Below, piece by piece: positions 675 to 63,776 of a stretch of DNA of 64,000 bases (position 1 is its first letter; the number at the start of each line of letters is the position of its first letter). Position numbers and translations under genes: made by a program. This DNA comes from Hymenobacter radiodurans. GTDB lineage: Bacteria; Bacteroidota; Bacteroidia; Cytophagales; Hymenobacteraceae. Where the stretch lies: NCBI RefSeq assembly GCF_004355185.1, contig NZ_CP037922.1, forward strand, positions 2,760,001-2,824,000, given 5' to 3'. The notes under the pieces were generated by a model. That model did not search any database, was not told where the DNA came from, and saw only the letters and a list, made by a program, of their open reading frames with translations.

Positions 675-1976
675 ATGCAGGAAAAGCATCGTTTGCTGAT
701 TTACAAATTTGGCGGCGCATCGGTGCGCGATGCTGAAGCTATTCGCAATTTGGCGCGCATTGTGGGCGCAAATGCCCCCCATACTCAACTACTCATTGTG
801 GTATCGGCGATGGGCAAGACAACCAATGCGCTAGAGGAGATTTTCCATCTGGCGCATTCGGGCCTGGATTACGCCGCTCCGCTCGCTGCATTGCGGGAAT
901 ACCATCAGAACGTAGCGTTGGAACTGCTGCCGGAAATCGGGGGGCAAATTGGTACTGATGGAGCAGTCGAAACGCAGCTCGGAATGCTGCTAAGTCAGCT
1001 CAGCGACCAGCTCACCGTCCTCACTCCCGGCGACTACGACCGACAGTACGACCAGATTGTGAGCTACGGCGAGCTGCTAGCAACCAGCATCGTGGCACAG
1101 GCGTTGGGCGCACATTGGCTTGATTGCCGGCCTCTTATTCGCACTGACTATACCTGGCGCGAAGGCCGCCTCGACTGGCCCACCACGGAGTATAATATTC
1201 GCGATGAAGTGCCCCGCCTCCTACTGACGGGCCCCGTCGTGACGCAGGGGTTTCTGGGTGGAACGGCTAGTGGTGCCACCACTACGCTTGGTCGCGAAGG
1301 CTCTGACTTTACCGCTGCCATTTTTGCGTATTGCCTACACGCAGAGTCAGTTACGATCTGGAAAGACGTGGCCGGCCTGCTCAATGCCGACCCCAAAATA
1401 TTTGCCGATACGGTGCGCTACCCGGAAATCAGCTACCAAGAGACAATTGAAATGGCGTATTATGGCGCCTCCGTCATTCATCCCAAAACCATTAAGCCAC
1501 TGGCGGTGCAACATATTCCGCTGTACGTGAAGTCGTTTCTGGACCCCACGGCCGAAGGAACCCGCATTGGTGATTGTCGACACGCGGCCTTGGCACCCGC
1601 CTTTATTCGCAAAACCAATCAGTGCCTTATTTCCTTCGAATCAAAAGATCTCACCTTTATTTCGGAGGAAAATCTGGAAGTCATTTTTGGCGCATTAGCC
1701 CAAGTGCGGCTCAAGATCAACCTGATGCAGAACTCCGCAATATCCTTCTCCGTCTGCACCGACTTTTCCGCCTACCGCTTAGAAAAACTGCTAGAGCATC
1801 TGCGCGACCAGTTCACCATTCATTACAACACGGAATTGGAGCTATACACCATCAAAAACTACGACTCGGCCAGTATCCAACGTCTCACTAATGGCCGCGA
1901 GCTACTGCTGGAACAACGCACCCGCCTTACTTTTCAGTTTGTATCGCGAGGCGGGTTAAATGAATTCGTAAAATAA
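675..1976 (+). CDS. lysC: Aspartate kinase
   Basis: Phosphorylates L-aspartate, the first step to lysine, threonine and methionine (cytosol). 433 residues, the usual length for a monofunctional enzyme. The kinase signature KFGGASV is at residues 11-17, and the substrate region [10 protein letters not shown] lies in the middle of the amino-acid kinase domain (about 8-290). The remaining ~140 residues fit the paired ACT regulatory domains, so feedback inhibition is likely but inferred. No fused homoserine dehydrogenase follows. It contains two copies of the iterated G6/C6 motif (775-780, 939-944), both in frame. Confidence 0.95.
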
Positions 1977-2047
1977 GTTTGGTTACTAATCAGCCTTCGA
2001 GCACTACACCAGCCTCTTAATCCAGCATCTTCTACCTCACCCACCAC

Positions 2048-2821
2048 ATGGAGTTTATAACTGTTACGCCCGCTGCGCGGCCTCAGGTAGCCCTCATTCA
2101 GCTCAATCGGCCCAAAGAGCTGAACGCTTTGAATTTGCAACTGATGCAGGAGGTGGCCGCGGCCCTGAAAGAATTGTGCGCCGACGATACCGTGCGCGTT
2201 ATTGTGCTTACCGGTAGTGAGCGAGCTTTCGCGGCCGGCGCCGATATCAAGCAAATGGCGGGGCGTACGGCCATCGATATGCTCACCATCGATCAGTTCA
2301 GCACCTGGGACCAGATTCGGAAAACGCATAAGCCGCTAATTGCGGCCGTTTCGGGCTTTGCGTTGGGGGGCGGCTGCGAGTTGGCCATGACCTGCGACAT
2401 GATTGTGGCCTCGGAAACGGCGCAGTTTGGGCAGCCTGAAATTCGTATCGGTACGATGCCGGGCGCGGGTGGTACACAACGGCTCACGCGGGCGTTGGGC
2501 AAAGCGCGCGCCATGGAAATGGTGCTTACCGGCCAGTCGATTTCGGCGCTGGAAGCTGAGCGCCACGGCCTTGTAAATAAAGTAGTGCCCGTGGGGCAAT
2601 ACTTGGAGGAAGCGTTTCGATTGGCAGCCAGCATTGCCCAGATGTCGCCGGTAGCGGCGCGCCTCGCTAAAGAATCGGTGAACCGGGCGTTTGAGACGCA
2701 TTTGGACGAAGGACTGCACTTTGAGCGCAAAAACTTCTATATGACGTTTGCTTCTGAAGATCAGAAAGAAGGAATGGCGGCGTTTGTGGAAAAGCGGCCC
2801 GCCGATTTTAAGGGGCGCTAG
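2048..2821 (+). CDS. Enoyl-CoA hydratase/isomerase family protein
   Basis: Crotonase-fold enzyme, 257 residues, probably hydrating trans-2-enoyl-CoA in fatty-acid or amino-acid breakdown. The oxyanion-hole segment FAAGADIKQM is near residue 60-70, and both catalytic glutamates of true hydratases are present: one in LGGGCE, the other in PEIRIGTMPGAGGTQ. That supports hydratase rather than only isomerase activity. It stands alone between lysC and the Fur-family gene, so the substrate is not given by context; crt/paaF-type is possible. Confidence 0.9.
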   Translation: MEFITVTPAARPQVALIQLNRPKELNALNLQLMQEVAAALKELCADDTVRVIVLTGSERAFAAGADIKQMAGRTAIDMLTIDQFSTWDQIRKTHKPLIAAVSGFALGGGCELAMTCDMIVASETAQFGQPEIRIGTMPGAGGTQRLTRALGKARAMEMVLTGQSISALEAERHGLVNKVVPVGQYLEEAFRLAASIAQMSPVAARLAKESVNRAFETHLDEGLHFERKNFYMTFASEDQKEGMAAFVEKRPADFKGR

Positions 2822-2968
2822 TATTTGGTATCCAGAGTGGGGCGACGTAGTCGAAGGCGTTGTTCCACTTTGGATCTTCTACTGCAACGCCACATTTTCG
2901 CTTCCCAGCGAACATTATTGTCCTCCTACGCCTTATTAAGGTACCGTTTAAGGAGAATCTATTTTTCT

Positions 2969-3451
2969 GTGAGCACTTCAACTAAACATTCTGACGCTTC
3001 ATTGCCAGCGGCTCCTACCCGCCAATGGCTGCGCGACCGGCTAACGCAGGCGGGTTTGAGGGCTACGCGCCAGCGGCTTGTTATTCTGGAGAGCGTGGTT
3101 GTGGAGAAGGGCCACCCGACAGCCGAACAGGTGCACCGCCAAGTGCTGATGCACGATGCGACGGTGTCGCTGGGCACGGTGTATAAGGCGCTTGACAGCT
3201 TTGTTACAACGGGGCTGTGCAAGCGGGTGCCTACGGCTGAAGGAGCGTGTCGCCGCTACGATGCCGACTGTTCAATCCATCACCATTTGTATTGCTCCAA
3301 CACGCAGGAAATAATTGACTACTGCGACCCGCAGCTGGACGCGCTGATTCAGGAATTTCTGGAAGCTCGTGGCTTTCAGAACTTTTGGCCCCGCTCCTTT
3401 TCGCTGCATATCACCGGCGAGCGGGCTGACGTAACAAACGAGCAGCAATAA
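2969..3451 (+). CDS. Fur/PerR-family transcriptional regulator
   Basis: About 160 residues: a winged-helix DNA-binding half (residues ~20-95) followed by the metal-binding dimerisation half with the HHHLYC segment. I chose GTG at 2969 because AAGGAG lies 13 bases upstream and the longer frame (to 2825) adds only low-complexity arginine-rich sequence. The two CxxC pairs that hold structural zinc in most Fur/PerR proteins are missing: the first is CSNT and there is no second. A 2-Cys peroxiredoxin follows 126 bases downstream on the same strand, so a PerR-like peroxide sensor is the best guess. Zur or Fur remains possible. Confidence 0.85.
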   Translation: MSTSTKHSDASLPAAPTRQWLRDRLTQAGLRATRQRLVILESVVVEKGHPTAEQVHRQVLMHDATVSLGTVYKALDSFVTTGLCKRVPTAEGACRRYDADCSIHHHLYCSNTQEIIDYCDPQLDALIQEFLEARGFQNFWPRSFSLHITGERADVTNEQQ

Positions 3452-3577
3452 TTGCCCCCCAGCTTCATCTTAGCGTATAGCAAAGCTGCCGAAGCTGCAC
3501 GTTAGGATACAATGCGACTTTAGGCAACGTACAAGTCATCTACGTTCACCTTATTTCACCCCTCAATCACCTTTTCC

Positions 3578-4300: not shown

Positions 4301-4314
4301 TAATTTTGCCCCCC
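4301..4314 (+). promoter_or_regulatory. Promoter -10 element followed by a C6 tract, upstream of waaA
   Basis: TAATTTTG (4301-4308) matches TAnnTTTG exactly and runs straight into CCCCCC (4309-4314), where transcription would start. It is 59 bases before the waaA start. Confidence 0.5.
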
Positions 4315-4372
4315 AACTGCTGGCCGAACGCTACTGGACGGCGGCACAAAGCCATAACTGCCACCCCAGATA

Positions 4373-5680
4373 GTGAGCAGTTTGGCGTTGTTCTCTTACC
4401 CACTGACAATCAATTCATTGCTTTTTCTATATAATCTTGCTCTCCAAACCTATGCCTTGCTGCTGCGCTTGGTTGCATCGTTTGTGCCCAAGGCAGAGCA
4501 ATGGCTGAGTGGGCGGCGCGGGTTGCTGCCTCATATTCAGCAGACGCTCAAGGACGAAACGGCGCCGTTGGTGTGGTTTCACTGCGCTTCGCTAGGCGAG
4601 TTTGAACAGGGCCGTCCGCTAATGGAAGCGTTCATGCAGGAATATCCCCAGTTCAAGCTTGTGCTCACGTTCTTCTCGCCATCAGGTTATAACGTGCGCA
4701 AATCGTGGCCCGGCGCACACTATGTGTTCTACCTGCCGCTCGATACTGCGGCCAACGCCCGCACTTTTCTCGATGCCGTGCGCCCTCAGCTAGCTGTATT
4801 TGTGAAGTACGAGTTCTGGTATCATTTCCTGACCCATCTTCAGCGTCGCCGCGTACCGGTGGTGTGTGTTTCGGCTATTTTCCGGCCCCAGCAAATATTT
4901 TTCAAACCTTGGGGGGCTTTTTTCCGCAAAATTATTGGCCGTTTTACGCACATATTCACCCAAAACGAGACGTCAGTAGAGTTGTTGCGGACCATCGGCA
5001 TTCGGCAGGCCAGCGTGGCCGGCGACACCCGCTTTGATACGGTGGTGCGCACGGCCCTGGCCTCGCCCAAGCCGCTGCCATTGGTGGAGGCCTTCGTGGC
5101 CGATGGCGCCCCGGTGTTTATTGTAGGCAGCAATTGGCCCGAAGATTTGCCGGCCCTCACGCCCCTGTTGCGGCAGTATCAGGAGGAGATGCGCTTCATA
5201 GTTGCCCCCCACGAAATCACGGAAACCAATCTGGCCTTAGTAGAGGCGGCGCTGCCGGGCCGCGTGGCGCGCTACTCAACCGCTACTCAAGCTACGGTAG
5301 CCAAAGCACGTGTGTTACTCATGGACAATGTGGGGTTGCTAAGTCAGCTGTACCGCTTTGGCACCTACGCCTATATCGGTGGCGCATTTGGGAAAGGGCT
5401 GCACAATACGCTGGAAGCGGCGGCCTTTGGCTTGCCTCTGTTTTTCGGCCCTACCTACACTAAGTTCCAGGAAGCCGTTGATCTGGTGGAGATGGGGGCT
5501 GCGTTTCCTGTGCACACAGCCGAAGAGTTGAAAACGGCGTTTGGGCTCTTATGGTACCAGAATGAGGTTCGACTGCGCGTGCAGGATATGAGCTTGGAAT
5601 ATGTACACCAACAGGCCGGAGCCACCGCCAAGATTATGGCGGAGCTGGCAAAGATGCACGTGGTTCCTGTTGTTAATTAA
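4373..5680 (+). CDS. waaA: 3-deoxy-D-manno-octulosonic acid (Kdo) transferase
   Basis: Adds Kdo to the lipid A precursor at the inner face of the cytoplasmic membrane during lipopolysaccharide synthesis. 435 residues, usual family length, starting at GTG 4373. An N-terminal hydrophobic anchor (about residues 5-38) precedes a GT-B glycosyltransferase fold. The acceptor-domain motif SLGEFEQG carries the conserved catalytic glutamate. The C-terminal half has the nucleotide-sugar segment YIGGAFGKGLHNTLEAAAFG. rsgA follows after 17 bases, so the two are probably co-transcribed. Two iterated C6/G6 motifs lie within (4911, 5205), both in frame. Confidence 0.92.
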   Translation: MSSLALFSYPLTINSLLFLYNLALQTYALLLRLVASFVPKAEQWLSGRRGLLPHIQQTLKDETAPLVWFHCASLGEFEQGRPLMEAFMQEYPQFKLVLTFFSPSGYNVRKSWPGAHYVFYLPLDTAANARTFLDAVRPQLAVFVKYEFWYHFLTHLQRRRVPVVCVSAIFRPQQIFFKPWGAFFRKIIGRFTHIFTQNETSVELLRTIGIRQASVAGDTRFDTVVRTALASPKPLPLVEAFVADGAPVFIVGSNWPEDLPALTPLLRQYQEEMRFIVAPHEITETNLALVEAALPGRVARYSTATQATVAKARVLLMDNVGLLSQLYRFGTYAYIGGAFGKGLHNTLEAAAFGLPLFFGPTYTKFQEAVDLVEMGAAFPVHTAEELKTAFGLLWYQNEVRLRVQDMSLEYVHQQAGATAKIMAELAKMHVVPVVN

Positions 5681-7420: not shown

Positions 7421-7458
7421 AAAAAAGCCCCCCAGATTGAGTCTGGGGGCTTTTTTAA
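7421..7458. terminator. Bidirectional terminator between SDR and fasciclin genes
   Basis: A-tract, G, C6, then AGA-loop-TCT, G5, C, T-tract. The U-run exists on both strands, suiting the convergent genes. The two arms differ by one base (C6 against G5). Confidence 0.88.
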
Positions 7459-9027: not shown

Positions 9028-10704
9028 ATGGCCTCTGCCTCTACCCCCACGTTTGCTGTTGTGCGGCTGTTTCGCCAAGGGCTCGTTTCCATTACGCTTA
9101 GCTGGCTTGCGCTGGCCGCCCACATCATCCTACTTTCAGGGTGCAATTATTACCGCACAAAGCCCCAGGAAATAACCCCGACGGCAGTTACTCAGCTAGC
9201 CGAATCCAAGATTTTCCTGATTCATCAGGGCAGCACGATCTGGCAGCTCAACAATCCGCAACTCAACGGCGAGGAGCTTACAGGCCAAAAAGCGAGCGTA
9301 CAGCCCAGCTTGGCTCCTTACGTTGGGCCAAACGCCCGGGTACCGCTGCGTTACAAATCGAAGGATAGGGAGCAGGTATTAAACCTGGTGCACATCTATA
9401 TCACCGATTTCCGAGCAGGTGAAGCAGACCAGGTCAACATTCCGCTAACGGCAATGAATCGCCTGGATTTGGTTGAAGCCAATACTGGCAAAACCACCCT
9501 CTCCTATCTGCTTGGGGCAACAGGCATTGGCGTGGGGATCTTCGTCTTGGTCGGGGTTATTGCGTTGCTCACCAAAAGCTCCTGCCCGTTTGTGTACGCG
9601 CACAATGGCGAGCAATATCAATTTGTGGGTGAGGCATATGGCGGGGCCATTTTTGCGCCATCCGAGCGCGACGACTATATGCCTCTTCCTGGTATCCAAG
9701 CCACTGGGGGGCAATTTCAGGTCAAAATAACGAATGAGCTGCGCGAGCGGCAGTATACCAACGTAGCCGAGCTGTGGGTGGCGCACCACGCCGAAAAGGT
9801 GCAGGTGCTGCTGGACAAAACCGGCAACGCACACACCATAACCCAGCCGCAAACGCCGACTAAAGCCATATCCATGAGCGGCGTAAACTATACGACTCAG
9901 CTTAGCGCCCCCGACCACAAGGTGTTTCTGTTCAATGAAACTACGCCGGGCACAACCCAAAACAGCGTGATCCTCAGCTTCGATAACCCGACCCAATCTA
10001 AAACGGGCAAACTGGTGCTTCATGCCCAGAACTCGCTATGGCTAGATTATCTCTACGGCGAGTTCACCAAGAAATTCGGGAGCGCCTTCAACAAATGGGC
10101 CCGCACCCAGAAAGATGTCCCAGCCGAGGAACTGAATCAATGGTCATTAGACCAAGGCATTCCGTTAAAAATCTCGCTCAAAACCGCGAAGGGCTGGGAA
10201 CTCATCGACAATATTCCCACCGTAGGTCCTCTCGCCTCCCGCGATTTGGTTATTCCCTTCGCTTTGCCCGCTGGGTTGGCTTCGCAGCCGCTGCAAGTGA
10301 AAATAGAAACGGGCTTTATGTTCTGGGAGCTAGACTATGCCGCCGTCGATTTCACGCCAAATCAGCATGTGCGCCTGGAAAAAAGCCCCCCGCAAACGGC
10401 CCGCGACGAAATCGGCCGCGACCAGCGTCAGGTTCTTTCAAAAGTGGATAACGACTATCTGAGCCAGCTTCAGCCCGGTACGGAGGTCACGCTCACCTAC
10501 CATGCCACGCCGCCAGCGGCCGGCCAACGCACCACCGCTTTTTTGCGCACTCGCGGCTATTATGAGCACATTCGTCAGTATGAGGGAGTGCCCAATCTGC
10601 CCCAACTGTATGCATTTCGCCGGCCGGGCCGCTTTATCGAGTTCTCGAAGGAAAAGTATCAGGAGTCGCAACAGGAAATGAATCTGGCCTTAGTTAATCC
10701 TTAG
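9028..10704 (+). CDS. Predicted lipoprotein paired with a radical SAM gene, function unknown
   Basis: 558 residues from ATG 9028, chosen because it puts the signal peptide (hydrophobic core about 19-36) directly before a lipobox, LLSGC, with Cys39. A longer frame begins at 8965. A second hydrophobic helix lies near residues 160-180, just before CPFVYAHNGEQYQFVGEAYGG; the remaining ~370 residues look beta-rich and contain no catalytic motif I know. The radical SAM gene starts 4 bases after the stop, so the two are almost certainly co-transcribed. I do not recognise a named family. Confidence 0.75.
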   Translation: MASASTPTFAVVRLFRQGLVSITLSWLALAAHIILLSGCNYYRTKPQEITPTAVTQLAESKIFLIHQGSTIWQLNNPQLNGEELTGQKASVQPSLAPYVGPNARVPLRYKSKDREQVLNLVHIYITDFRAGEADQVNIPLTAMNRLDLVEANTGKTTLSYLLGATGIGVGIFVLVGVIALLTKSSCPFVYAHNGEQYQFVGEAYGGAIFAPSERDDYMPLPGIQATGGQFQVKITNELRERQYTNVAELWVAHHAEKVQVLLDKTGNAHTITQPQTPTKAISMSGVNYTTQLSAPDHKVFLFNETTPGTTQNSVILSFDNPTQSKTGKLVLHAQNSLWLDYLYGEFTKKFGSAFNKWARTQKDVPAEELNQWSLDQGIPLKISLKTAKGWELIDNIPTVGPLASRDLVIPFALPAGLASQPLQVKIETGFMFWELDYAAVDFTPNQHVRLEKSPPQTARDEIGRDQRQVLSKVDNDYLSQLQPGTEVTLTYHATPPAAGQRTTAFLRTRGYYEHIRQYEGVPNLPQLYAFRRPGRFIEFSKEKYQESQQEMNLALVNP

Positions 10705-10708: not shown

Positions 10709-11955
10709 ATGGAATCAACCCTCATTCCTGAACTCAACTATTTGGTTGCTGCTCCTGCTTCGTTAGCCACAGAGCCGATTTCAGTAGCCTTGCCAACTTT
10801 GCCCCCCACGGTAATTGCGTCGCCGCTCAAGCGGGCTATGCTGAATGGCGTGATTGATCTGGCGGGAAATAAGCTCGTATTTCAATTTATGCGCACGCCA
10901 GCCCGAATCATTTTAGCGGCCAAGCAGGTGCAGATGCTGCGGACCACCTACTATGGGGGCTTCAGGTACGAAAAATAGCGTGCGTGGCGGGGCGCTATTA
11001 CCAGGAGTTTCAAAAGCCGGGCTGGCCATCGGCCGCGTTCAACAGCTATATAGCAACCACCATCGACCGCTTAGTGCCCTTCCGCGCTAAGCAAGACACG
11101 TTGCAGATGGTGTTTATGGCTATCACCAAAAAATGTCCCCTGGCCTGTGAGCATTGCTTTGAGTGGGATTCCCTGAATCAGCGGGAGAAGCTTTCCTTGG
11201 CTGATTTGCGCTCGATGGTGGCAAACTTCCAGAATCGGGGCGTCACCCAGCTATTTTTCAGCGGCGGCGAGCCTATGGTCCGTATCCACGATATGCTGGA
11301 GGTGCTGCGCACGGCCAGTTCCGGTACCGACTTCTGGGTATTCACTTCCGGCTTCAACTTTACGCCCGCCAATGCCCAGCGACTCCGTGGGGCCGGCCTG
11401 ACGGGCGTTTCCATCAGCCTCGATCATCATGAGCCCGCGCGGCACAACACATTTCGCGGTTCGGCGGAGGCATATGAGCTCGCCATTCAGGCCGTGATTA
11501 ACGCAAAAGAAGCTGGCTTGGTCGTCGCCCTTACTTTGTGCGCCACACAGTCGTTTACTACTGCCGCCAACCTAATGGCGTACGCCGCAATGGCTAAGCA
11601 ACTGGGAGTCACGTTTATTCATGTGCTGGAGCCGCGGGCCGTGGGGCATTATGCTCAACAGGAAGTTGACCTGAGCCCGGCCCAAACGGCACTCTTAGAC
11701 GAGTTTTACCTGAAACTCAACTACAGCGGCGACTACCACGATTACCCCATAGTGCACTACTACGGCTACCACCAGCGGCGCATGGGCTGTAGCGGTGGCG
11801 CCGACCGCTTTCTATACGTGGACACCGACGGCGACATGCACGCTTGCCCTTTTTGTCAGAAGAAGTCGGGCAGCGCGCTTTCCGCTTCGTTTGATGAGGC
11901 GCTACAGGGAGTTAGGCAAGGCGGGTGTCATCAGTTTCCGGCGTCTCGTATATGA
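10709..11955 (+). CDS. Radical SAM protein (SPASM-like C-terminus), frameshifted at a G5 tract
   Basis: As written the gene is two frames: 10709-10978 and 10984-11955. One extra G in the G5 tract at 10955-10959 joins them into about 415 residues, reading YYGGLQVRK through the break. The 4Fe-4S/SAM motif CPLACEHC (CxxxCxxC) is near residue 150, followed by the FFSGGEP segment of the SAM site. The C-terminal CSGG...CPFCQ...GCH pattern suggests a short auxiliary-cluster (SPASM-like) region. Such enzymes modify peptides or proteins. No small precursor gene is seen; the upstream lipoprotein is the obvious partner. Function is inferred from family only. Confidence 0.85.
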
Positions 11956-12185: not shown

Positions 12186-13343
12186 ATGAAACACCTTACT
12201 CGACTAGCAGCCTGTTGCTCGCTTGCCTTACTGGCAGCCTGCAACGACGACAACAACCCGTTTGTCATTAACAAGCCTATTCAGGTTACGTCGCTCCGCT
12301 TTATTGGCGAGCATATCGTGCCGTTTGGTCAAACGTACAATGGCACCACGCTGGGGGGCTTTTCCAGCATTGACTACCGTGCAGATAATGGTTCCTATTA
12401 CATTATGTGCGACGATGCCGCTACTCTGCAGCCGGTTCGGTATTACACCGCCAACCTCAATTTCAACCAGAATCAATTCCTGGGCGTCACCTTCACGAGC
12501 GTGACTACGCTGAAGCGGCCTGACGGCGGTAATTTTACCAGCCTCGCCGCCGACCGTAATAACGCCATTGACCCAGAAGGCATCCGCTATGACCCTACCA
12601 CGATGCGCGTTATCTGGTCGAGTGAGGGCATTCGGAATTTGACTTTCACGCCACCCGTGCTAAACCAGCCGTTCCTACGCGAGGCTAACCTCGATGGCTC
12701 CTACGTGGCTGATTTCAGCATTCCATCGTTGTTCCGCATTCAGGCCACCGAGAATGGCACCCGTTCCAATGGCGGCTTTGAGGGTTTTGACCTCACGGCC
12801 GATGGCCGTTACCTGTTTGCTGCCCAGGAAGAACCGCTGTACGAAGATGGCCCCCGCGCCGATGTAGGCGTAGCAAACTCACCCACCCGCATCTTGCAGT
12901 ACGATAAAGCTTCCCGTCAGCCCATTGCCCAGTATGCGTACCTACTCGACGAGGTGCATCAGGCGCCAAATCCTTCTAACCAATTCCGCCTCAATGGTAT
13001 TGTGGAAGTACTTACGCTCTCCGACAAGAAATTGCTGGTGATGGAAAGATCGTTTGCCGTGGGTGCCACGCCCGATTATTCGGTGAAGATCTACGAGGTT
13101 GAGCTGGCTGGGGCTACAAATATCTCGGGCCTCAATTCGCTGCAAGGTGCCAACTACAAGCCCGTGCGCAAGCGCCTGTTGCTCGACGTAGCTACCACTG
13201 GCATTCGCCGGATCGACAACCTGGAAGGCATGACATTCGGTCCGAAACTGCCCAATGGCAACCGTTCCCTAATTCTGGTAGCCGACGACAACTTCAGCAA
13301 CGGCCAGATTTCGCAGTTCCTGGCGTTTGAGGTTAAGCCATAA
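12186..13343 (+). CDS. Esterase-like phytase-family lipoprotein
   Basis: 385 residues. The signal peptide ends in lipobox LLAAC (Cys19). The rest fits the 'esterase-like activity of phytase' family, a six-bladed propeller: GGFSSIDYR near the start, DPEGIRYDP, EGFDLTADGRYLFAAQEEP and NLEGMTFGP are the repeated acidic blade motifs. It is likely a periplasmic or surface hydrolase of phosphate esters; the true substrate is not known for most members. Single-gene unit with its own terminator. Confidence 0.85.
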   Translation: MKHLTRLAACCSLALLAACNDDNNPFVINKPIQVTSLRFIGEHIVPFGQTYNGTTLGGFSSIDYRADNGSYYIMCDDAATLQPVRYYTANLNFNQNQFLGVTFTSVTTLKRPDGGNFTSLAADRNNAIDPEGIRYDPTTMRVIWSSEGIRNLTFTPPVLNQPFLREANLDGSYVADFSIPSLFRIQATENGTRSNGGFEGFDLTADGRYLFAAQEEPLYEDGPRADVGVANSPTRILQYDKASRQPIAQYAYLLDEVHQAPNPSNQFRLNGIVEVLTLSDKKLLVMERSFAVGATPDYSVKIYEVELAGATNISGLNSLQGANYKPVRKRLLLDVATTGIRRIDNLEGMTFGPKLPNGNRSLILVADDNFSNGQISQFLAFEVKP

Positions 13344-13792: not shown

Positions 13793-13828
13793 AAAAAAGC
13801 CCCCAGACATAATCTGGGGGGCTTTTTT
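13793..13828. terminator. Bidirectional terminator
   Basis: A6-G-C5-AGA, short loop, TCT-G6-C-T6, between convergent genes. Arms are unequal (C5 against G6). Confidence 0.88.
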
Positions 13829-15367: not shown

Positions 15368-15785
15368 AGAGGGAGAGAGTTACCAGCCCAGATGCAAAAG
15401 CAGAACAAAGGGAAGTTCAACTTAGGGGCTAGTTGCTGATGAATATAACTAGCAAGGGGGCCGGTTGGTTCGGACAGAATCGGTTAAGCTTGCAGATACT
15501 CGCTCTACAAGACCACTTTTTATTACAAGGCACCATCTGGGACAGCCCTTACGCTTTGATTCTTGAAGTAGCTCAACTAGCCTGGGGGGCTTTTTTCGTC
15601 TTTATAAACCACCTTTGTCCGCGTAGCAGCACTCATTTACAGCGTGGATTTAATTCTGCAACACCCACACTAGGCGCTAGAGCGAGTGGCAGTGTTTACA
15701 GATAGAAAGACCTACTCTCATGAGAACTCAAACTGAGTAATCTGACAAGCCATTAGACCTTTTACCAAAGCGACGGGGGGCAAAT
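15368..15785. other. Intergenic region of about 420 bases
   Basis: Between the MoxR start and the P-type ATPase end. It has two G6 motif copies (15584-15589 and 15775-15780). On the minus strand TAAATTTG, overlapping the ATPase stop, matches the -10 consensus and runs straight into C6, so it could drive MoxR with a long leader. A 90-codon open frame (15433-15705) looks non-coding. No other feature seen. Confidence 0.5.
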
Positions 15786-34002: not shown

Positions 34003-34048
34003 AAAAAAGCCCCCAGAGCCCGCATACGAGCGTCTGGGGGGCTTTTTT
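34003..34048. terminator. Bidirectional terminator
   Basis: A6-G-C5-AGA(G), 15-base loop, GTCT-G6-C-T6 between convergent corA and TPR genes; arms unequal (C5/G6). Confidence 0.88.
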
Positions 34049-40946: not shown

Positions 40947-40960
40947 GGGGTACTGCCCAC

Positions 40961-40997
40961 AAAAAAGCCCCCCAGCTATGTGGCTGGGGGCTTTTTT
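40961..40997. terminator. Bidirectional terminator
   Basis: A6-G-C6-AGC-TATGTG-GCT-G5-C-T6 between convergent genes; arms unequal (C6/G5). Confidence 0.9.
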
Positions 40998-41068
40998 GTG
41001 GGCAATACAGATAGCTTATTTGTCTTTGCGCTGCTCAATAGTCTCGGTGCTGGGATGCAGACTCATGG

Positions 41069-48783: not shown

Positions 48784-49493
48784 ATGCCAGATTTGCCCCC
48801 CACTCCCATCATCGACGTTATTATTCCCGCCTACAACGAGGTGCATTCCATTTCGCACGTCATCATGGAAATTCCGAAGGATCTGGTGCGGGAGATAATA
48901 GTGGTCGATAATAACTCCACCGATGATACCGGGCTGATAGCTCGTGCCTCGGGCGCTACGGTACTGCAGGAACGCCGTCCTGGCTATGGCTACGCGTGCC
49001 TGCGAGGCATGGCCCACTGCTATGGCCGCCCCCTGAGGAGCAGCCCGATATCATCGTGTTCCTTGATGGCGATTACTCCGATTATCCCAAGGATATGCCC
49101 TTAGTGCTGGCTCCAATTCTGCGCGGCGAGGCCGATATGGTGATTGGCTCGCGGGCCTTGGGCAAGCGCGAGAAAGGCTCGATGCTGCCCCAGCAGATAT
49201 TCGGCAATTGGCTGGCTACTACGTTGCTGCACTCCTTTTACGGCGCCCGCTTCACCGACCTGGGGCCCTTTCGGGCTATCCGCGCTTCGGCATTGAAGCG
49301 CCTCAACATGCAGGATAAAACCTACGGCTGGACTGTAGAGATGCAGCTTAAAGCCGCCAAACTCAAGCTGCGTACCACCGAAGTACCGGTGCGCTACCGC
49401 CGCCGCATCGGCAAATCGAAGGTATCTGGGACGGTGGCCGGCACGCTGGGCGCGGGCTACAAGATTCTGTGGACCATTTTTAAGTATTTGTAA
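48784..49493 (+). CDS. GT2 (dolichol-phosphate-mannose-synthase-like) glycosyltransferase, frameshifted at C5
   Basis: Given as two frames (48724-49104 and 48996-49493); one extra C in 49029-49033 gives 236 residues from ATG 48784. VIIPAYNEVHSI, EIIVVDNNSTDDT and the DxD in FLDGDYSDYP mark a GT-A fold; VGKSKVSGTVAG-like sequence near the end is typical of the polyprenyl-phosphate glycosyltransferase group. Probably forms a polyprenyl-phosphate sugar, the donor for GT39/GT87-like enzymes, and a GT87-like gene lies 2 kb downstream. Confidence 0.87.
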
Positions 49494-49597: not shown

Positions 49598-51060
49598 ATG
49601 AAAGAGCTGGAAATATTTCTTCTGGTTCTTTATGGTTTATGTCTCACGTTCATTCTGGGCTTTAGCCTAAGTCAGCTGCAGCTCACGCGGCTGGCCCGAC
49701 GCGCCTACCGCCGCCCGGCATTGCCCGCACCTTCTCTGCCTGCTGACTGGCCTTCGGTAACCGTGCAGCTGCCTGTGTTCAACGAGGTAAATGTGATAGA
49801 GCGGGTGATAGATGCGGCGGCGGCGCTGGCTTACCCGCACGATAAGCTCCACATTCAGGTACTCGACGATTCCACCGACGAAACAGTTGCGCTGGCCGCC
49901 GCCCGCATAGCGTGGCATCGGGCACAAGGCATCCATATTGATCATGTTCTGAGATCTGATCGTGAGGGCTTTAAAGCTGGTGCATTAAAGCATGCCTTAA
50001 TCTGCACCAACGCGGAGCTAGTCGCTATTTTTGATGCCGATTTCGTACCCGAACCCGACTTTCTGATGCGCACCGTCCCTTACTTTTCTGATGCAGCAGT
50101 TGGGGTAGTGCAAACGCGTTGGGCTCATCTCAATGAGGACTATTCGTTGCTAACGGAGCTGCAGGCGTTTGCCTTGAATGCGCACTTTTACGTGGAGCAA
50201 GTGGGGCGGCTAGCTGGGGGGCATTTTATCAACTTCAACGGTACGGGCGGCGTGTGGCGGCGGCGTTGCATCGAGGAATCGGGTGGGTGGCAGAGCGATA
50301 CGCTCACGGAAGATCTGGACCTGAGCTACCGGGCGCAACTGCGCAATTGGCAATTCGTGTACTTGCCTCAGGTTGTGGCACCCGCTGAGCTACCGGCCGC
50401 AATGGATGCGCTGAAGTCGCAGCAGTTTCGCTGGACCAAAGGCGGCGCCGAAACTGCCCGCAAGCACTTGGGCAGCGTGTTAAGGTCGGGGCTTCCCTTT
50501 TCCACCAAGCTACAGGCCACTTTTCATTTGCTCAACAGCACTGTTTTTCTGGCCATTCTGATCCTCTCCGTGCTCAGCGTACCCTTAGTGTTTGTGCGGC
50601 AACACTCCCCCGAGTTAGAGCTAATATTTGAGTTGGCCAGCGTGTTTTTGCTTACTCTACTGCCGTTGGTGTTCTACTATTACTCAGCTTGGCGCTACGC
50701 TAACCCTGAAGCTCGGTGGGGGCCTTTTTGCCTAAGTTTTTGTTGTTCCTGGCTGTATCCATGGGGTTGGCGCTGCACAACTCAAGGGCAGTGCTGCTGG
50801 GGCTGATGGGCCGACGCTCGGCCTTTATCCGCACTCCCAAAATGGGCTTGGTCCGGCGTCAAGGAACCTGGCAGGGTCGCCGCTACCGCACCGGTCGCTT
50901 CGATGGCCTTACTGTGCTAGAAGGACTGCTCACCATTTACTTTTTGTTTGGCATTGGGGCCGGCTTGTCCATTGGTGACTACGGCCTGCTGCCATTTCAT
51001 CTGCTGTTGGCGGTCGGCTACGGCCTTGTTTTCTATTACTCAGTCCGCCACTCCACATAG
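49598..51060 (+). CDS. Processive-type GT2 glycosyltransferase (cellulose-synthase-like), frameshifted at G5
   Basis: Given as two frames; one extra G in 50718-50722 gives 487 residues (ARWGAFLPKFLLFLAVSMGL through the join). One N-terminal helix, then the catalytic D residues in VLDDSTD and FDADFVP, TEDLDLSYRAQL (the general base Asp), and QQFRWTKGG (QxxRW), the four hallmarks of processive GT2 enzymes, followed by four or five C-terminal helices. May polymerise an exopolysaccharide or make glucosyl-lipids. Next gene starts 12 bases downstream. Confidence 0.88.
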
Positions 51061-51072: not shown

Positions 51073-52428
51073 ATGTTTCGCCTCTCTCTTCGTCAGCTCA
51101 TCGCCCTTGTGCTTAGTGCGGCGGCATATGTCGGGGTAGCTTATGCTACGCCACGAGCAAATTTCGGGCAGCTACTGGGGCTGATGGCCGTGGCGTTTTT
51201 CGCTTATATCTGGCTGGTACGCAACCAGTTGTCGCTGCGGTTAGCCTTGGTTGCCGGTCTGCTCTTTCGCCTACTGTGGCTGCCCGCTACTCCCGCCCTC
51301 TCCGACGACTATCACCGTTTCCGTTGGGATGGCCTGCTGGTGGCTGGGGGGCAAAATCCGTACTTGCACCGCCCCGCTGAGTTGCTGGCATCCCCCACCC
51401 AGCCTAGCAACATACAGCTAGCGCAGCAACTCACCGACCTCTATCCCAAACTCAACTCTCCTCATTATTACTCTGTCTATCCACCCGTTTGTCAAGCCAT
51501 TTTTGGGGTGGCCGCGTGGCTGTTCCCCGATAGCGAACAGGGCTTTATAGTTCTCTTGCGGGTAGTGCTGATAGGCGCAGAACTGGCAACGTTTCTCTTG
51601 CTAGTGAGCCTGCTGCGCCATTTTGGTCAGCTAAAGCACCAAGCGCTATGGTACGTGCTAAATCCGCTGGTTATCGTAGAGCTGACGGGCAACCTCCACT
51701 TTGAAGCCTTACTCATCTTCGGACTGCTGGCGGCATGGTGGGCGCTGGTGCGAGGGCGCTGGGCGTGGTCGGCGGGAGCACTGGGGCTGGCTGTGGCCAC
51801 CAAACTGCTGCCGCTGCTGGTGCTCCCTTTTCTAATTCGACGCTTGGGCTGGGGGGCTTTTTTGCGCTATGCCGCCGTCCTGAGCGTGGTCGTAGGGGCC
51901 CTTTTTGTGCCATTTCTATCCCTAGATCTATTCAGCAACTTTGGCCGGAGCCTCGATCTATATTTTCACACCTTTGAGTTCAATGCCAGCTTCTACTATC
52001 TACTACGAGCGGCCGGCTACTGGCTGAAAGGCTATAACCTGATAGCCACCATCGGTACCGGCCTTGCTCTGACCACTGGCCTGTTGTTGTTGCTGTATGC
52101 TTGGCGTGAGCACCACTCTACGTTGGCCTCGCTGGGCCAAACGCTGTTGCTGGCTCTTACACTCTACTACTTGCTGGCTACCACTGTACATCCTTGGTAT
52201 CTGACGCCGCTTGTTGCCTTGGCCTGCTTCACGCCTTACCGCTATAGTGTGGTTTGGTCGGGCGTAGTTTTACTTTCCTACGCCGCCTATCAAACGCCCA
52301 TTTATGCCGAGAATCTTCTGTTGGTGGGCTTAGAGTATATAGTAGTCGTTGGAAGCCTGGTGTGGGAAGTATTACTGTCGAAGCCTGTAAGTTTGTTTAC
52401 AGTGAACCCACCGACTCAAATCAGGTAG
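51073..52428 (+). CDS. Polytopic GT87/mannosyltransferase-like membrane protein
   Basis: 451 residues and about 11 helices. SDDYHRFRWDGLLVAGGQNPY carries the acidic pair of the first outer loop, as in GT-C enzymes; HFEALLIFGLLAAWWALV and TVHPWYLTPLVALACF match the GT87/Alg-type layout. It follows the GT2 gene by 12 bases and probably uses a polyprenyl-phosphate sugar from the 48784 product. Sugar identity unknown. Two iterated G6 motifs inside (51346, 51851), both in frame. Confidence 0.78.
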   Translation: MFRLSLRQLIALVLSAAAYVGVAYATPRANFGQLLGLMAVAFFAYIWLVRNQLSLRLALVAGLLFRLLWLPATPALSDDYHRFRWDGLLVAGGQNPYLHRPAELLASPTQPSNIQLAQQLTDLYPKLNSPHYYSVYPPVCQAIFGVAAWLFPDSEQGFIVLLRVVLIGAELATFLLLVSLLRHFGQLKHQALWYVLNPLVIVELTGNLHFEALLIFGLLAAWWALVRGRWAWSAGALGLAVATKLLPLLVLPFLIRRLGWGAFLRYAAVLSVVVGALFVPFLSLDLFSNFGRSLDLYFHTFEFNASFYYLLRAAGYWLKGYNLIATIGTGLALTTGLLLLLYAWREHHSTLASLGQTLLLALTLYYLLATTVHPWYLTPLVALACFTPYRYSVVWSGVVLLSYAAYQTPIYAENLLLVGLEYIVVVGSLVWEVLLSKPVSLFTVNPPTQIR

Positions 52429-54066: not shown

Positions 54067-54702
54067 CTATTTGGCTTGTTTTTCTGCCGTGCGCCATACG
54101 GCCAGATCGTCGGCCGTATCGACATCGTGCAAAGTAGGCAGGTGGGCAACTTGCAGGCCCAGACGAGCAGCATCGGCTAGGGTATCGGGTAGGACGGAAG
54201 CGGTGCTCCAGGTTTTATTCTGAAATAAATCCTGGTGTAACGCATTCATACCTAGCAGATAATAGCCACCATCAGCGGCTGGCCCCACTACTACATCGTG
54301 CGTGGCTAACAACTCAAAAGCTTGGCTTAAAAGTGCAGTGCTAAGGTCAGGGCAATCGGTGCCAATGATTACAACGGAGGCGGCGCCAGCGGTAAATGAA
54401 TGCTTAAATGCGAACTGCATTTTGCCCCCCAAGTCGCCGGACGGCTGCCGTTGCCAGGTGTAGTCAGGCCATTCAGCAGCTACGGTCTCAGGGGTTAAGG
54501 CCACACTGGCCGGCGGCGTCAGCCACACTATTTTTTGCCCCCCAAAGCCATCAGCGGCGGTACGGGTACGGACCAGCAGTTCACGGTACACGGCCAAAGC
54601 CGCTTCGTCGCCGATGCTTTGCGCGAGTCGAGTTTTTACCTGCCCTAATTCCGGCAGGCGAGCAAAAATGAGCAAATGCTGTTGCTGATTACTGGTGGCC
54701 AC
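54067..54702 (-). CDS. TIGR04282-type arsenosugar biosynthesis glycosyltransferase
   Basis: 211 residues of the DUF2064 family: FARLPELGQVKTRLAQSIG at the start (nucleotide-binding), VIIGTDCPDLS and GPAADGGYYLLG with the DGGY site. In arsenosugar clusters this protein is thought to add sugar to the arsenic-ribose product; here arsS lies two genes upstream in the same direction. Two C6 motifs inside (54425, 54538). Nucleotide-sugar specificity is unknown. Confidence 0.88.
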   Translation of the reverse strand: MATSNQQQHLLIFARLPELGQVKTRLAQSIGDEAALAVYRELLVRTRTAADGFGGQKIVWLTPPASVALTPETVAAEWPDYTWQRQPSGDLGGKMQFAFKHSFTAGAASVVIIGTDCPDLSTALLSQAFELLATHDVVVGPAADGGYYLLGMNALHQDLFQNKTWSTASVLPDTLADAARLGLQVAHLPTLHDVDTADDLAVWRTAEKQAK

Positions 54703-55278: not shown

Positions 55279-56328
55279 CTATGCCGTAGCGCCGCCACAG
55301 CTGGAGCCAGCGCCGGCGGTGCAGCCGTAGCAGTGTTGATTAATAACAATGGCTCGCTCCTGCAAAGCAGCTGCATCGAAGGATCGGATGTGCTGGGGGG
55401 CATTTTGCGCTACGTTCAGGTCGAGCTGCTGATTGAAGTCGCAGTCGTACAGCTGCCCGTCCCAGCCAATGGAAAGCGTACTGCGGCACATTACATTAGC
55501 CGCCGCCACGGGGTTGTAAGCGGCTACCAGCTTTTGCATGTAGCTTTCGTAATTGCCGCTTTCCAGCAGATATTCCATAAACCGGCTTATCGGCAAATTG
55601 GTAATGGCCAGTAGATTATTGAACACTACCTCGTGCTCACGTAGTAAGCGTTGCTTGAATTCCCGCTCCAACCCGGCCTGACTGCCCGGCAAAAAGGCCC
55701 CCGCCGGATTAAATACCAAGTCGAGTAATAATCCCGAGCCCTCCACACCATAGCCCACCGCATTCAGCATACGCAGGGCCCGGATAGAGCGCGCAAATAC
55801 ACCTTCACCCCGTTGGGCATCAGTACGGCCGGCTGAGAAGTGCGGCAGCGACGACACTACCCGCACACCGTGGCGGGCAAAGAACTCGGGCAGGTTGTAG
55901 TACTTCGGGTTGGCTACAATAATCGTCAGGTTGCAGCGCACGATAATCTGGCGACCCAAGGCCGAAATCTGCTCCACAAACCAGCGAAAATCCGGATTCA
56001 TTTCCGGCGCGCCACCCGTTAAGTCAACCACTGGAATCGTAGTTTGGGCCAGCGCATCGAGGCAGAGCTGCATGGTAGCGCGCGTCATAATCTCGGTGCG
56101 GTCGGGGCCGGCGTCTACGTGGCAATGGCGGCAAGTCTGATTGCACATTTTCCCCACGTTCACCTGCATTACGGCCAGTTCGGTAGGACGCAGCGGTAGC
56201 AGGCCCGATTCGCGCAGCTTGTGGGCAAAGGCAGGCAGCCGGGCACCCGCCGCTTCCGCCTCACTCAGCACCGTAAGCTGGTAGCTGCTATCGGCAAGGG
56301 CATGGTGTTGGGCGTGCAGTGATTTCAT
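55279..56328 (-). CDS. arsS: Arsenosugar biosynthesis radical SAM protein ArsS
   Basis: 349 residues. The radical SAM motif CNQTCRHCHVDAGPDR (CxxxCxxC) is near residue 62, and the C-terminal half ends in CYGCTAGAGSSCGGATA, a second cysteine-rich, cluster-binding region. NPAGAFLPGSQAGLE and DLTGGAPEMNPDFRWF are typical of the ArsS family, which links an adenosyl unit to methylated arsenic. The methyltransferase arsM is not seen in this window. Confidence 0.9.
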   Translation of the reverse strand: MKSLHAQHHALADSSYQLTVLSEAEAAGARLPAFAHKLRESGLLPLRPTELAVMQVNVGKMCNQTCRHCHVDAGPDRTEIMTRATMQLCLDALAQTTIPVVDLTGGAPEMNPDFRWFVEQISALGRQIIVRCNLTIIVANPKYYNLPEFFARHGVRVVSSLPHFSAGRTDAQRGEGVFARSIRALRMLNAVGYGVEGSGLLLDLVFNPAGAFLPGSQAGLEREFKQRLLREHEVVFNNLLAITNLPISRFMEYLLESGNYESYMQKLVAAYNPVAAANVMCRSTLSIGWDGQLYDCDFNQQLDLNVAQNAPQHIRSFDAAALQERAIVINQHCYGCTAGAGSSCGGATA

Positions 56329-56771: not shown

Positions 56772-56907
56772 GGTTGCGAGGGGGTTATAAGTATAAGTGC
56801 GCTAATAACAGCTTCGGCGCGGGTTGGTGTTTGATTAATTGGTCATCAGTAATCTTGTCATTTCAATTACTCCAACAAAAAAGCCCCCCAGACAGCTACT
56901 ATAACAA

Positions 56908-56992: not shown

Positions 56993-57871
56993 TTAAATAT
57001 TCCCAACTACCGTCAGCGTCGACAACGTAGGATTGATGCTGCCGCCTGCAGGCTCCACCGTCATGGCAAATGCTTGGGCGCTGGCAATATCTTTCATCTG
57101 CTGAAGGCTGTCGCCGGAAGTGGTAGCGGCGGCCAATACACCTGCATCTACGGGCTTACCGTTGTCCAAGGCCCACAGCTGATACTGTTTGCCCGAAGGA
57201 GGTGCAGGCAGTTTGCGTACGTCGAGATACACCGCCTTTGTTTTAGGGTTGTACAGTACCCGGGCGCTGGCCGAAGGAGCCGCCGCCGTCCCGGCCAATG
57301 CCACTGTCCGGAAATCGTCGCTGCGTAGCACTTCCAGCTCCTGCTGACGCACCGCCAACGTTCGCTCCGACGCCTGCATTACGCTTGCTACCCGGCTCTG
57401 CTCGGTGCGGGCAATAGCCAAGTCAGCAGTTGCATCGCGCCAGCGGGTGTACAGCACGAAGTTAGCCAAGCCGCTGGCCAGCAATAGGGCCACTGAGGCA
57501 GCCAGCATCCAGCGGAAAGCGGGACCAGAGGCAGTATTAGCCGTTTCAGGCTCCAATGGTGTCAGTTGGCGAACAACTGGCTCCGTAGCAGCAGCGGGTG
57601 CAGCTGCATTGCCGGTCTGGGGGGCTTTTTGGGCTTCCGACCGGATAGCAGCTTGCCACCCTGCTAGCACCCGCTCCCGCATGGCAGCGGGGGGCGTTTC
57701 GGCATGAGCCTGGGCATACACGCCAAGGGCTTGCTGCACCTGATCCAGTTCGTGTGCAATTTCGGGATGCGCTGCGGCCTGTGCTTCGACAGCCGCGCGC
57801 TCCGCCTCGTTCAGCTCGCCAAGGGCGTACTGTTCGAGGATGCCTGATTCGATATATTCCTGAATATCCAC
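56993..57871 (-). CDS. Anti-sigma factor (RskA-like), partner of the ECF sigma
   Basis: 292 residues from GTG 57871. An N-terminal helical zinc-finger-free anti-sigma domain (LEQYALGELNEAERAAVEA) is followed by one membrane helix (about 122-142) and a C-terminal RskA domain ending in a beta-rich stretch (KQYQLWALDNGKPVDAG). It starts 2 bases after the sigma gene's stop and is translated with it. The signal it senses is unknown. Two G6 motifs inside (57619, 57689). Confidence 0.88.
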   Translation of the reverse strand: MDIQEYIESGILEQYALGELNEAERAAVEAQAAAHPEIAHELDQVQQALGVYAQAHAETPPAAMRERVLAGWQAAIRSEAQKAPQTGNAAAPAAATEPVVRQLTPLEPETANTASGPAFRWMLAASVALLLASGLANFVLYTRWRDATADLAIARTEQSRVASVMQASERTLAVRQQELEVLRSDDFRTVALAGTAAAPSASARVLYNPKTKAVYLDVRKLPAPPSGKQYQLWALDNGKPVDAGVLAAATTSGDSLQQMKDIASAQAFAMTVEPAGGSINPTLSTLTVVGNI

Positions 57872-62954: not shown

Positions 62955-63119
62955 AGGCTCAAAGTATCGATTAATCCGCACAGCATAGCATTGTTAGGGA
63001 GCACAAGAATGTAATTCTAACTTGCAGCCTTATAGCCGTTGCTCAGGCAAACTCATCTGCTAAATGTGATGCTTAATAGTCATAGCATTTACCCTGAAAT
63101 ACTGTCGATTATCTAGCCC

Positions 63120-63163
63120 CAACACAACAACCCAGGCCAGTATTGACCGGGGTTGTTGTGTTG
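63120..63163. terminator. Inverted repeat between the tandem paralogs
   Basis: CAACACAACAACCC pairs perfectly with GGGTTGTTGTGTTG across a 16-base loop; a single G6-CTTTTT motif lies beside it (63172). Probably ends paralog B's transcript, though a clear T run is missing on that strand. Confidence 0.5.
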
Positions 63164-63204
63164 ACAGCACTGGGGGGCTTTTTGGCGCGGAGCTGGCAGG
63201 GGCT

Positions 63205-63654
63205 CTAGTCTAATACAGAAGTCATGTAGCTTATGGGTCCGCCAAATGCCTGCCCAATGGATACTAACTCCGCCCATCTATCCTCCTGCTTGCGGCGGGC
63301 AGGCAGGGGCGAACCACCGCCGGTTTCCGAAGAACCGCCCCAATACAAACGCACTTGTATCGTCTCATTTACCACGGTACCCGCTACGGTTACTGTACCA
63401 GTACGACGCTTATACAGCCCATTCGTGGTAAGCGTAAACAGAGAATTATCGCTGTGCGCGATGCTGTAGCCGCGCTGCACGAGTACCTGCGCCAGCCGCT
63501 GCCAACTCTCCGCAGGCGTACCGCTAAGAGCCAGCACCATCGTGTCGTCCTCTCTATTAGCGCCGGCCTGCGCTCCCGCTGGAGCCGGTGTGGTTTGCGC
63601 CTGCGCTACTTGAATTGATAAAAATAATAAGCCGAGGTAGAGTAGTTTTTTCAT
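63205..63654 (-). CDS. Exported protein, tandem paralog B
   Basis: 149 residues, signal peptide MKKLLYLGLLFLSIQVAQAQT, then a Gly/Ala linker and the domain TPAESWQRLAQVLVQRGYSIAHSDNSLFTL shared with paralog A. Slightly different C-terminus (GQAFGGPISYM against IARDMGGRISYA). A recent tandem duplication is likely. Function unknown. Adjacent gene on the other strand begins 122 bases away. Confidence 0.7.
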   Translation of the reverse strand: MKKLLYLGLLFLSIQVAQAQTTPAPAGAQAGANREDDTMVLALSGTPAESWQRLAQVLVQRGYSIAHSDNSLFTLTTNGLYKRRTGTVTVAGTVVNETIQVRLYWGGSSETGGGSPLPARRKQEDRWAELVSIGQAFGGPISYMTSVLD

Positions 63655-63776
63655 GCTCTCAAAGTATCGCTTTATCCGAATAAGTAAACCTGTTTGCTCG
63701 TTATACTTTGTCGAGACGCGAGCAGCAACCTACCCGGCTTCTTTGTATTGTTGTAACTTCAAAAAAGCCCCCCGCC

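Follow-up and report, generated by a model that had tools for sequence, protein, structure and literature searches.

The iterated octamer and its sites in the window

The window analyzed here is a 64-kb stretch of Hymenobacter radiodurans (C2:2760001-2824000 of the source genome, G000, whose two contigs of 4,728,901 and 190,065 bp total 4,918,966 bp), in which the octamer TGGGGGGC, or TG6C, recurs on both strands, within genes and between them. An exact count gave 38 copies, 17 on the forward and 21 on the reverse strand, in agreement with the original prediction. The chance level of about two given in that prediction was too low, since dinucleotide shuffles of the window (n = 100) had a mean of 3.94 copies (standard deviation, sd, 1.81; maximum 8) and a third-order Markov model expects 4.19; the excess itself is real, with the observed count approximately 9-fold above the Markov value. 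Six G residues are strongly preferred, as 38 TG6C stand beside 10 CG6C, 2 TG6T, and a single copy each of AG6C and TG7C. The shorter TGGGGGC is found 23 times; 13 of these copies carry an A-tract, in each case with TTTT following, and four of the 13 are the second arms of four terminator-type pairs.

Copies of the word with an A-tract are located in coding sequences (CDS) at 9705..9717, 45823..45835, 50215..50227, and 51345..51357 on the forward strand and at 17265..17277, 23067..23079, 36436..36448, 43072..43084, 48790..48802, 54419..54431, and 54532..54544 on the reverse strand; the copy at 36436 is kept by three of three clade relatives and present in none of nine aligned outgroups. Others run antisense in CDS (769..781 in CDS 675-1976 and 44505..44517, both reverse; 55394..55406, forward) or are intergenic (3449..3461, 4303..4315, and 44909..44921, all reverse). 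The word with a T-tract lies in CDS at 4910..4922 (with GCCCC upstream), 12352..12364, and 51850..51862 on the forward strand and at 23718..23730 and 37048..37060 on the reverse strand, the last kept by two of three clade relatives and present in none of nine aligned outgroups. It is antisense in CDS at 17693..17705 and 57618..57630 (both forward), intergenic at 56878..56890 (reverse) and 63171..63183 (forward), and at 15583..15595 (forward) falls in a short open reading frame (ORF) call that may be intergenic.

Four copies are recorded as the word alone: 5199..5211 (reverse, antisense in CDS), 10796..10808 (reverse, intergenic), 19955..19967 (forward, in CDS), and 31648..31660 (reverse, in CDS), the latter missing from eight of eight aligned outgroups, several of them partial alignments. 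The octamer lacks the A-tract at 2364..2376 (forward, in CDS, TGGGGGGCGGCTG), where neither of two relatives that align keeps it, at 17125..17137 (forward), antisense in a gene with E1-E2_ATPase and Hydrolase domains, and at 29587..29599 (reverse, in CDS), where nine of nine aligned outgroups are without it. The near-variant CGGGGGGC with an A-tract is present at 63763..63774 (reverse) as one of seven in the window, the other six starting at 938, 10381, 15774, 25839, 46715, and 61686.

A repeat finder given the regions near 7.4, 13.8, 34.0, and 41.0 kb returned a terminator-type inverted pair in each: 7421..7456 (reverse; G6 and G5 arms of 12 nt with a 12-nt spacer), 13793..13828 (forward; AAAAAAGCCCCC / GGGGGCTTTTTT), 34003..34048 (forward; 22-nt spacer), and 40950..41008 (reverse; 23-nt arms). 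These pairs bear out the earlier proposal that inverted copies serve as terminators. An Rfam scan of the window gave no match at gathering scores. Positions 13844-15367 hold an AAA+ type ATPase gene with weak Pfam matches to Mg-chelatase, AAA_5, and Sigma54-activator.

The genome-wide count called for by the original prediction placed 1,273 copies on the forward and 1,291 on the reverse strand (2,564 in total), far above the Markov expectation and control words; the word with its letters reversed occurs 20 and 24 times (44), making the real word 58-fold more frequent. For site-level analysis, 39 stretches of 20 kb were joined with the window to an 844-kb sample holding 460 sites, 457 of them with full flanks. 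The density of 0.545 per kb is within the order of one per 1-2 kb typical of the DNA uptake sequence (DUS) and the uptake signal sequence (USS). Using longest-ORF calls made for this analysis, 351 of the 460 sites fall in coding sequence, where 404.6 would be expected, and 109 are intergenic; the coding sites, 199 sense and 152 antisense, occupy all three frames, as had been claimed from the window. Sites are spread fairly evenly along genes with a mild 5' lean (328 sites), and their spacing is slightly more even than random (coefficient of variation 0.887 vs 0.984, sd 0.043). Convergent intergenic regions are enriched (29 sites vs 15.1 expected), with stems in 21 of the 29. Among the intergenic sites, 38 of 109 have GCCCC within 30 bp upstream and 36 of these 38 continue into TTTT, the terminator type; the same arm accompanies 8 coding sites. 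Low-GC genes contain 0-0.33 sites per kb vs 0.55-0.63, a difference partly expected for a G-rich word.

The 13-bp unit and the phased DNA around it

Alignment of the 457 flanked sites revealed C at -1 in 55%, A/T in 92-97% at +8 to +11, and A/T in 82% at +12. Four A/T bases directly follow TGGGGGGC at 389 of the 460 sites. A TpA step interrupts 51 of 321 five-base A/T tracts at sites, compared with 65% of 4,280 background GC+W5 sites (W, A or T). The real unit is approximately 13 bp long, TGGGGGGC followed by an A-tract free of TpA steps, and the A/T-rich flank noted earlier is more exactly a tract of about 5 bp that adjoins the C on its 3' side. A halo of near-variants with the A-tract surrounds this unit (TGGGGGC, 162, and CGGGGGGC, 107, in 844 kb), and neither was found in 200 kb of three word-less genomes. 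TGGGGGGC with its A-tract was negative in a palindrome test, as opposed to the palindromic sister word ACCTAGGT.

Around coding TG6C sites of G000, A-tract triplets recur every 10.5 bp. None of 1000 subsets drawn from 2,632 control GC+A-tract coding sites reached the amplitude of this phasing at 251 sites, nor did any of 500 phase-matched controls reach that at 317 sites. The same phase is held from -42 to +63. Controls were as strong in 0/400 cases at -26..-5, 14..35, and 21..42 and in 1/400 at 42..63; the stretch at -42..-21 keeps the phase and is the weakest (28/400), and at -63..-42 phasing was not significant (72/400). Farther upstream, at -126..-84, a 10.5-bp A-tract signal in another phase was matched by 0/400 controls. 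An independent set of 159 near-variant coding sites shares the phase of the TG6C sites, with 8, 0, 0, 4, and 13 of 400 controls as strong over -42..-21, -26..-5, 14..35, 21..42, and 42..63. Phasing at TG6C was replicated in 78 sites pooled from Hymenobacter sp. BT188, H. roseosalivarius, and H. qilianensis (0/500 at both 10.25 and 10.5 bp).

The unrelated word TGGCCTA of genome G036 has the same period (0/500 controls), with 8/400 controls as strong at -42..-21 and 117/400 at -63..-42. Exchanged between the lineages, the words are unphased, as TGGCCTA in G000 (78 sites) was matched by 474/500 controls and GGGGGC in G036 (216 sites) by 306/500; GGGGGC is phased in G000 (887 sites, 0/500), where it contains the word. 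Similarly phased DNA thus surrounds two unrelated words, in each case only in the lineage to which the word belongs. This observation suggests that a reader protein probably bends or wraps approximately 100 bp around the word.

Carriers, origin, and sister words

Among 204 genomes of the family, TGGGGGGCWWWW (the octamer with four A/T bases, W4, attached) occurs 2,191 times in G000, 1,955 times in H. qilianensis JCM 19763, 2,142 times in H. roseosalivarius DSM 11622, and 2,721 times in Hymenobacter sp. BT188, compared with 0-22 times in the other 200; the chromosomes of G000 and its closest relatives thus contain about 2,200 copies. In a phylum sample of 296 genomes only G000 is word-rich, the other 295 holding at most 25. 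The excess is therefore not shared by relatives in the family, and the role suggested for Hymenobacteraceae narrows to a trait of some Hymenobacter clades, this word being abundant in 4 of 204 genomes. Neither of the outcomes named in the original prediction as refuting it was obtained. The four word-rich genomes are close relatives within the genus. A 913-aa protein encoded in the window is 93% identical in BT188 and 91% in H. roseosalivarius, and at most 69% in all genomes outside the clade; in H. qilianensis the identity is 95% and 93% for its two main pieces and 66% for a short one that contains a stop. Three of the four form one clade in the tree, and the fourth is equally close by protein identity.

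Comparison at 45823 disclosed that all four clade members carry TTCTGGGGGGCAATTATGT, while five aligned outgroups have the same length without the word (for example, GGGGCGCGGTAATG or TTCTGGGGCGCGGTAATGT). The word was gained in place, by substitution; indels were involved at some other sites when the window was compared with homologous stretches. Between species it is preferentially kept, at 23 of 34 aligned sites in BT188 (31% for other octamers of equal GC) and at 16 of 25 in H. roseosalivarius (30%). The conserved block spans 13 bp, with an identity of 0.85-1.0 in BT188 and 0.8-1.0 in H. roseosalivarius against 0.80-0.81 in the flanks. In H. qilianensis only 13 of 33 sites are kept (control 33%), and many losses are deletions of one G. 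In its complete genome (CP060784.1) many runs of G6 appear as G5, and the reading frame of the 913-aa gene is broken (L206-L209, L321). The one-G deletions and the broken gene together suggest that this sequence probably contains homopolymer or assembly errors.

The 190-kb plasmid of G000 contains 25 octamers and, among the matches listed (its octamer list being taken as complete), 5 TGGGGGGCWWWW, so that the chromosome is approximately 18 times denser in TGGGGGGCWWWW. A 20-kb plasmid stretch is richer in GC (0.62 vs 0.546 in the chromosome sample) and has 4 octamers where the Markov model expects 2, which places the plasmid near chance. If the plasmid is assumed to be newly acquired, these counts indicate depletion of the word in newly acquired DNA. 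A viral-contig scan for CTGGGGGGCTTTTTT matched at least 120 stretches and was not used as evidence.

Other Hymenobacter clades have words of their own, namely TGGCCTA, ACCTAGGT, and CCTACCCC, with 1,290-3,262 copies in the richest genomes. They emerged from a k-mer scan of 40-80-kb samples of 14 genomes without TG6C (13 from the genus, 1 from the family); in six of these (G042, G025, G078, G110, G002, G086) no word of comparable strength was found. TGGCCTA, found in G121 and G036, occurs 630 times in 400 kb of G036 against 97 expected, with the consensus ASTGGCCTAS. Genome-wide counts were then compared across 120 Hymenobacter genomes. GTGGCCTAG numbers 2,226 in H. fodinae, 2,235 in G036, 2,103 in H. 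wooponensis, and 1,290 in G121, and 3-122 in the other 116. CCCTACCCCC reaches 1,404-2,318 in five genomes (G037, G068, G088, G090, G118) and 91-562 in nine intermediate ones (G012, G027, G040, G046, G066, G079, G091, G098, G119), with at most 66 in the rest; the intermediate counts could reflect an emerging, decaying, or variant word. ACCTAGGT numbers 3,262 in H. cavernae, 1,815 in H. crusticola, and 1,867 sites in G115, then 492 in G080 and 450 in G096, with 0-60 in the rest. The latter two genomes also hold about 100 GTGGCCTAG each, and their 913-aa protein is 47-48% identical to that of G000, unlike that of the other ACCTAGGT genomes (66-68%).

In a tree of 58 sequences, TG6C (3 rows), TGGCCTA (4), and ACCTAGGT (3) each mark one clade. 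The exception to this agreement of words with clades, which is as expected for DUS and USS, is CCTACCCC, whose 6 rows, labeled from intermediate-count genomes (113-495), fall in two clades, with a third, distant G088 clade outside the tree. The tree uses 28 of 45 named loci, the 17 omitted being mostly repeats of a handle row, along with H. qilianensis, for its broken frames, and H. terrestris, by oversight, and it still holds a few duplicates. CCTA is common to three of the four words and absent from TGGGGGGC. ACCTAGGT and TGGCCTAGGCCA are palindromic, and 400 kb of G036 contain 50 copies of GGCCTAGGCC; TGGGGGGC with its A-tract and CCTACCCC are non-palindromic. Occurrence on both strands and in all frames, conservation above background, and clade-specific words sustain the earlier view that selection acts on DNA and not on protein.

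Several further repeats were recorded in passing. Solirubrum has a GCCCTAGGT-like word in 22.7 kb. In G058 (L265, L266, L286) the palindrome GGGGCCCC has 50 sites in 60 kb against about 7 expected and is perhaps another iterated word, and TCAGCATGAC / GAGATGCTTCG, recurring in G020, G048, G077, and G101 (L262-L264, L276-L283), are probably fragments of a longer repeat that is dispersed in the genus. Several Hymenobacter genomes have an excess of TGCGCGA/TGCGCGAC (noted for the window and relatives), which in G015 is apparently the in-frame codon pair CGC GAC; TGCGCGAC was rejected as a second motif, being such a codon pair with flanks of 3-bp periodicity.

Candidate roles and known systems

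We tentatively interpret TGGGGGGC with its A-tract as a lineage-specific, genome-wide self-recognition word, for which DNA-uptake-like recognition would be the most likely use. A protein would read the word as double-stranded DNA, bending or wrapping about 100 bp, and DNA bearing the word would be preferentially taken up or recombined, so that molecular drive would multiply the word within interbreeding clades and the words would come to differ between clades as "dialects". Such uptake would be pilus-independent, of the kind known in Bacteroidota, relying on ComEC, DprA, and surface parts. Extended to the genus, and with somewhat more doubt, Hymenobacter could represent a family of uptake dialects outside the pilus-based systems, with several words in sister clades, each of which a type IV pilus-independent machine would read along with about 100 bp of helically phased, curved DNA. 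Uptake-like dialects explain the most at once, because they would account for drive into genes, clade-wise words, conservation, the chance level on the plasmid, and the phased AT tracts. The existence of a sequence-specific DNA-bending reader appears to us more probable than its use in uptake.

A search for competence genes was proposed in the original prediction. ComEC was present in each of the 24 genomes examined for it and DprA in 20 of 21, the exception being a genome that is 82% complete. PF00437, the ATPase family that covers type II systems, type IV pili, Tad, and VirB11, had no match above cut-off in any of the 25 genomes whose word counts are high or intermediate, in a search that did not extend to pilins; below cut-off, G012 has a single hit. 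The sole ATPase over cut-off among 42 genomes lies at C6:66301-67419 (L219) of H. lucidus, a genome without a known word. Riemerella, another member of the Bacteroidota, can be transformed by means of ComEC, DprA, ComF, RecA, and four proteins whose function is unknown; pilus homologs were not found in its genome (PMC8459023). By analogy, pilus-independent uptake in Hymenobacter is possible, if unproven.

Several results weigh against uptake. ComEC and DprA are also present in genomes without a known word and are therefore non-specific, and the ATPase expected of a pilus machine has no match above cut-off in the 25 genomes. DUS are known to be bound by ComP, a type IV minor pilin, and a pilin of this type is also predicted to act as receptor for the USS (PMC12616744). 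Counting both sides, the phasing covers about 100 bp, more than the 32 nt of the USS, and the Hymenobacter dialects differ far more from one another than DUS dialects do. A Riemerella-type surface operon was considered as the receptor and dropped for lack of support: the DUF5689 gene has full-length matches (E <=6.4e-17) in 17 of 120 Hymenobacter genomes (L357-L373), among them all five ACCTAGGT genomes, and none in G000, and at the two loci scanned its neighbors are a SusD-like gene in both and, at L363, a phosphoesterase gene. Phasing was not significant in G121 (46 sites) or in G088, the CCTACCCC genome, with 107 sites in windows; 44 sites of the latter were suggestive (11/500 controls as strong at 10.5 bp, 6/500 at 10.75 bp). 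Some control words with few sites were matched by small numbers of controls, namely TGGACTA (10/500 at 32 sites in G000, 17/500 at 13 sites in G036) and GTGCCTA (5/500 at 28 sites in G036), and so was the foreign CTACCCC (20/500 at 61 sites in G036). No report of transformation in Hymenobacter, nor of uptake sequences or over-represented words in Hymenobacter, Bacteroidetes, Bacteroidota, or Cytophagales, was found in the open-licence literature, judged by title and abstract.

The sites could instead bind a DNA-wrapping enzyme or nucleoid protein, of which DNA gyrase is the best known, with A-tracts guiding the wrapping, the word fixing its position, and the whole kept for chromosome topology; we regard this as unlikely. 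Several thousand evenly spread sites would suit a topoisomerase, as could the enrichment in convergent intergenic regions, and the phasing at 10.5 bp over about -42..+63 agrees with the 10.5-11-bp AT phasing over approximately 130 bp expected of gyrase sites. Gyrase is conserved, yet the words differ between sister clades and were not found in most of the genus; foreign words are unphased in the larger sets, and the sites lie along genes without a 3' excess. The Escherichia coli gyrase motif resembles the Hymenobacter sites in its helically phased AT/GC, with 130 bp, two arms, and a GC periodicity of 10.75 bp (PMC6379681), but it is degenerate, has no fixed word, and is not known to be clade-specific. 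In Hymenobacter a precise word lies at the center, and phasing is strongest directly beside it, at -26..-5 and +14..+35. A gyrase site would have a non-periodic central 36 bp between periodic arms; how the Hymenobacter sites compare with this layout would depend on the center of the putative complex. A wrapping enzyme accounts for the phasing and not for the dialects. The reverse holds for an iterated sequence like the highly iterated palindrome HIP1 of cyanobacteria, favored without DNA uptake through modification (orphan methyltransferase), repair (mismatch repair), or a role in recombination, which we consider rather improbable. HIP words recur about once per kb, and exceptional genomes have wholly different ones (PMC4390886), which resembles the density and lineage-specific alternatives seen here, and ACCTAGGT, TGGCCTAGGCCA, and the frequent GGCCTAGGCC would fit. 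HIP1 is, however, a palindrome tied to methyltransferases, and two of the four Hymenobacter words are non-palindromic; helical phasing around HIP1 is not described in the sections consulted (PMC4390886). Such a process accounts for lineage words and not for the phasing.

That base composition, G runs, or codon use produced the excess has almost no remaining probability. Codon-driven words do exist in the genus, as TGCGCGAC illustrates, but the reversed-word and Markov comparisons, the 200 family genomes with 0-22 copies, the use of all frames and both strands, the conserved 13-bp block, the preference for six G, and a GC-richer plasmid at chance level rule this artefact out. A polar chromosome signal, such as Chi or the FtsK-orienting polar sequences (KOPS), is very improbable. 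Chi sites, too, are lineage-specific octamers, and like the present word a signal of this type could have thousands of copies; Chi is polar with replication. Divided at 2.36 Mb, with the origin assumed near base 1 as sampled GC skew supports, the chromosome halves of the 844-kb sample have strand counts of 108/104 (p = 0.84) and 110/138 (p = 0.09). This absence of polarity, anticipated in the original prediction from the balanced strands, is evidence against Chi and KOPS, which were dropped, and double-stranded helical phasing and palindromic sister words would not suit a single-strand signal.

If the uptake-like reading is true, species of Hymenobacter would recognize their own DNA and spread it. 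With at least four words in different clades, the genus would allow the origin, spread, and change of such words to be followed as a natural experiment, along with their possible part in species boundaries. The phasing predicts a reader that bends or wraps about 100 bp, and the words could be used as bait for the outer receptor that binds DNA in Bacteroidota competence or, should the uptake reading fail, for a new sequence-specific DNA-wrapping protein.

To our knowledge, Neisseriaceae and Pasteurellaceae are the only families from which uptake words spread through the whole genome have been described. The likeness to these words that was first noted is strengthened by the sister dialects, the AT tracts in helical phase, and the plasmid at chance; with no pilus-type ATPase above cut-off in 25 of 25 genomes, a phased flank of about 100 bp that exceeds the uptake sequences described in the literature consulted, and non-specific ComEC and DprA, it stays unproven. 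DUS lie on both strands and in genes, and inverted pairs of them act as terminators. Neisseriaceae and Pasteurellaceae are the two families named for uptake words (PMC1939737), and DUS of the former have thousands of copies, one dialect per clade, and many copies with one mismatch (PMC3630211). The Hymenobacter words resemble DUS in copy number, clade-wise dialects, near-variants, use of both strands, location in genes, and terminator pairs. In contrast, DUS dialects vary a single word around a shared CTG core, whereas the Hymenobacter words are largely unrelated (three of four share CCTA), and DUS are read by the pilin ComP, whereas the search in Hymenobacter gave no type IV pilus ATPase and the phased A-tracts cover about 100 bp. 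USS of Pasteurellaceae consist of a core followed by AT-rich regions at helical-turn spacing, which are thought to help DNA kinking (PMC12616744), an arrangement similar to that around the Hymenobacter word. The USS extends to 32 nt with its AT regions downstream only; in Hymenobacter the A-tract touches the core and further phased A-tracts lie on both sides.

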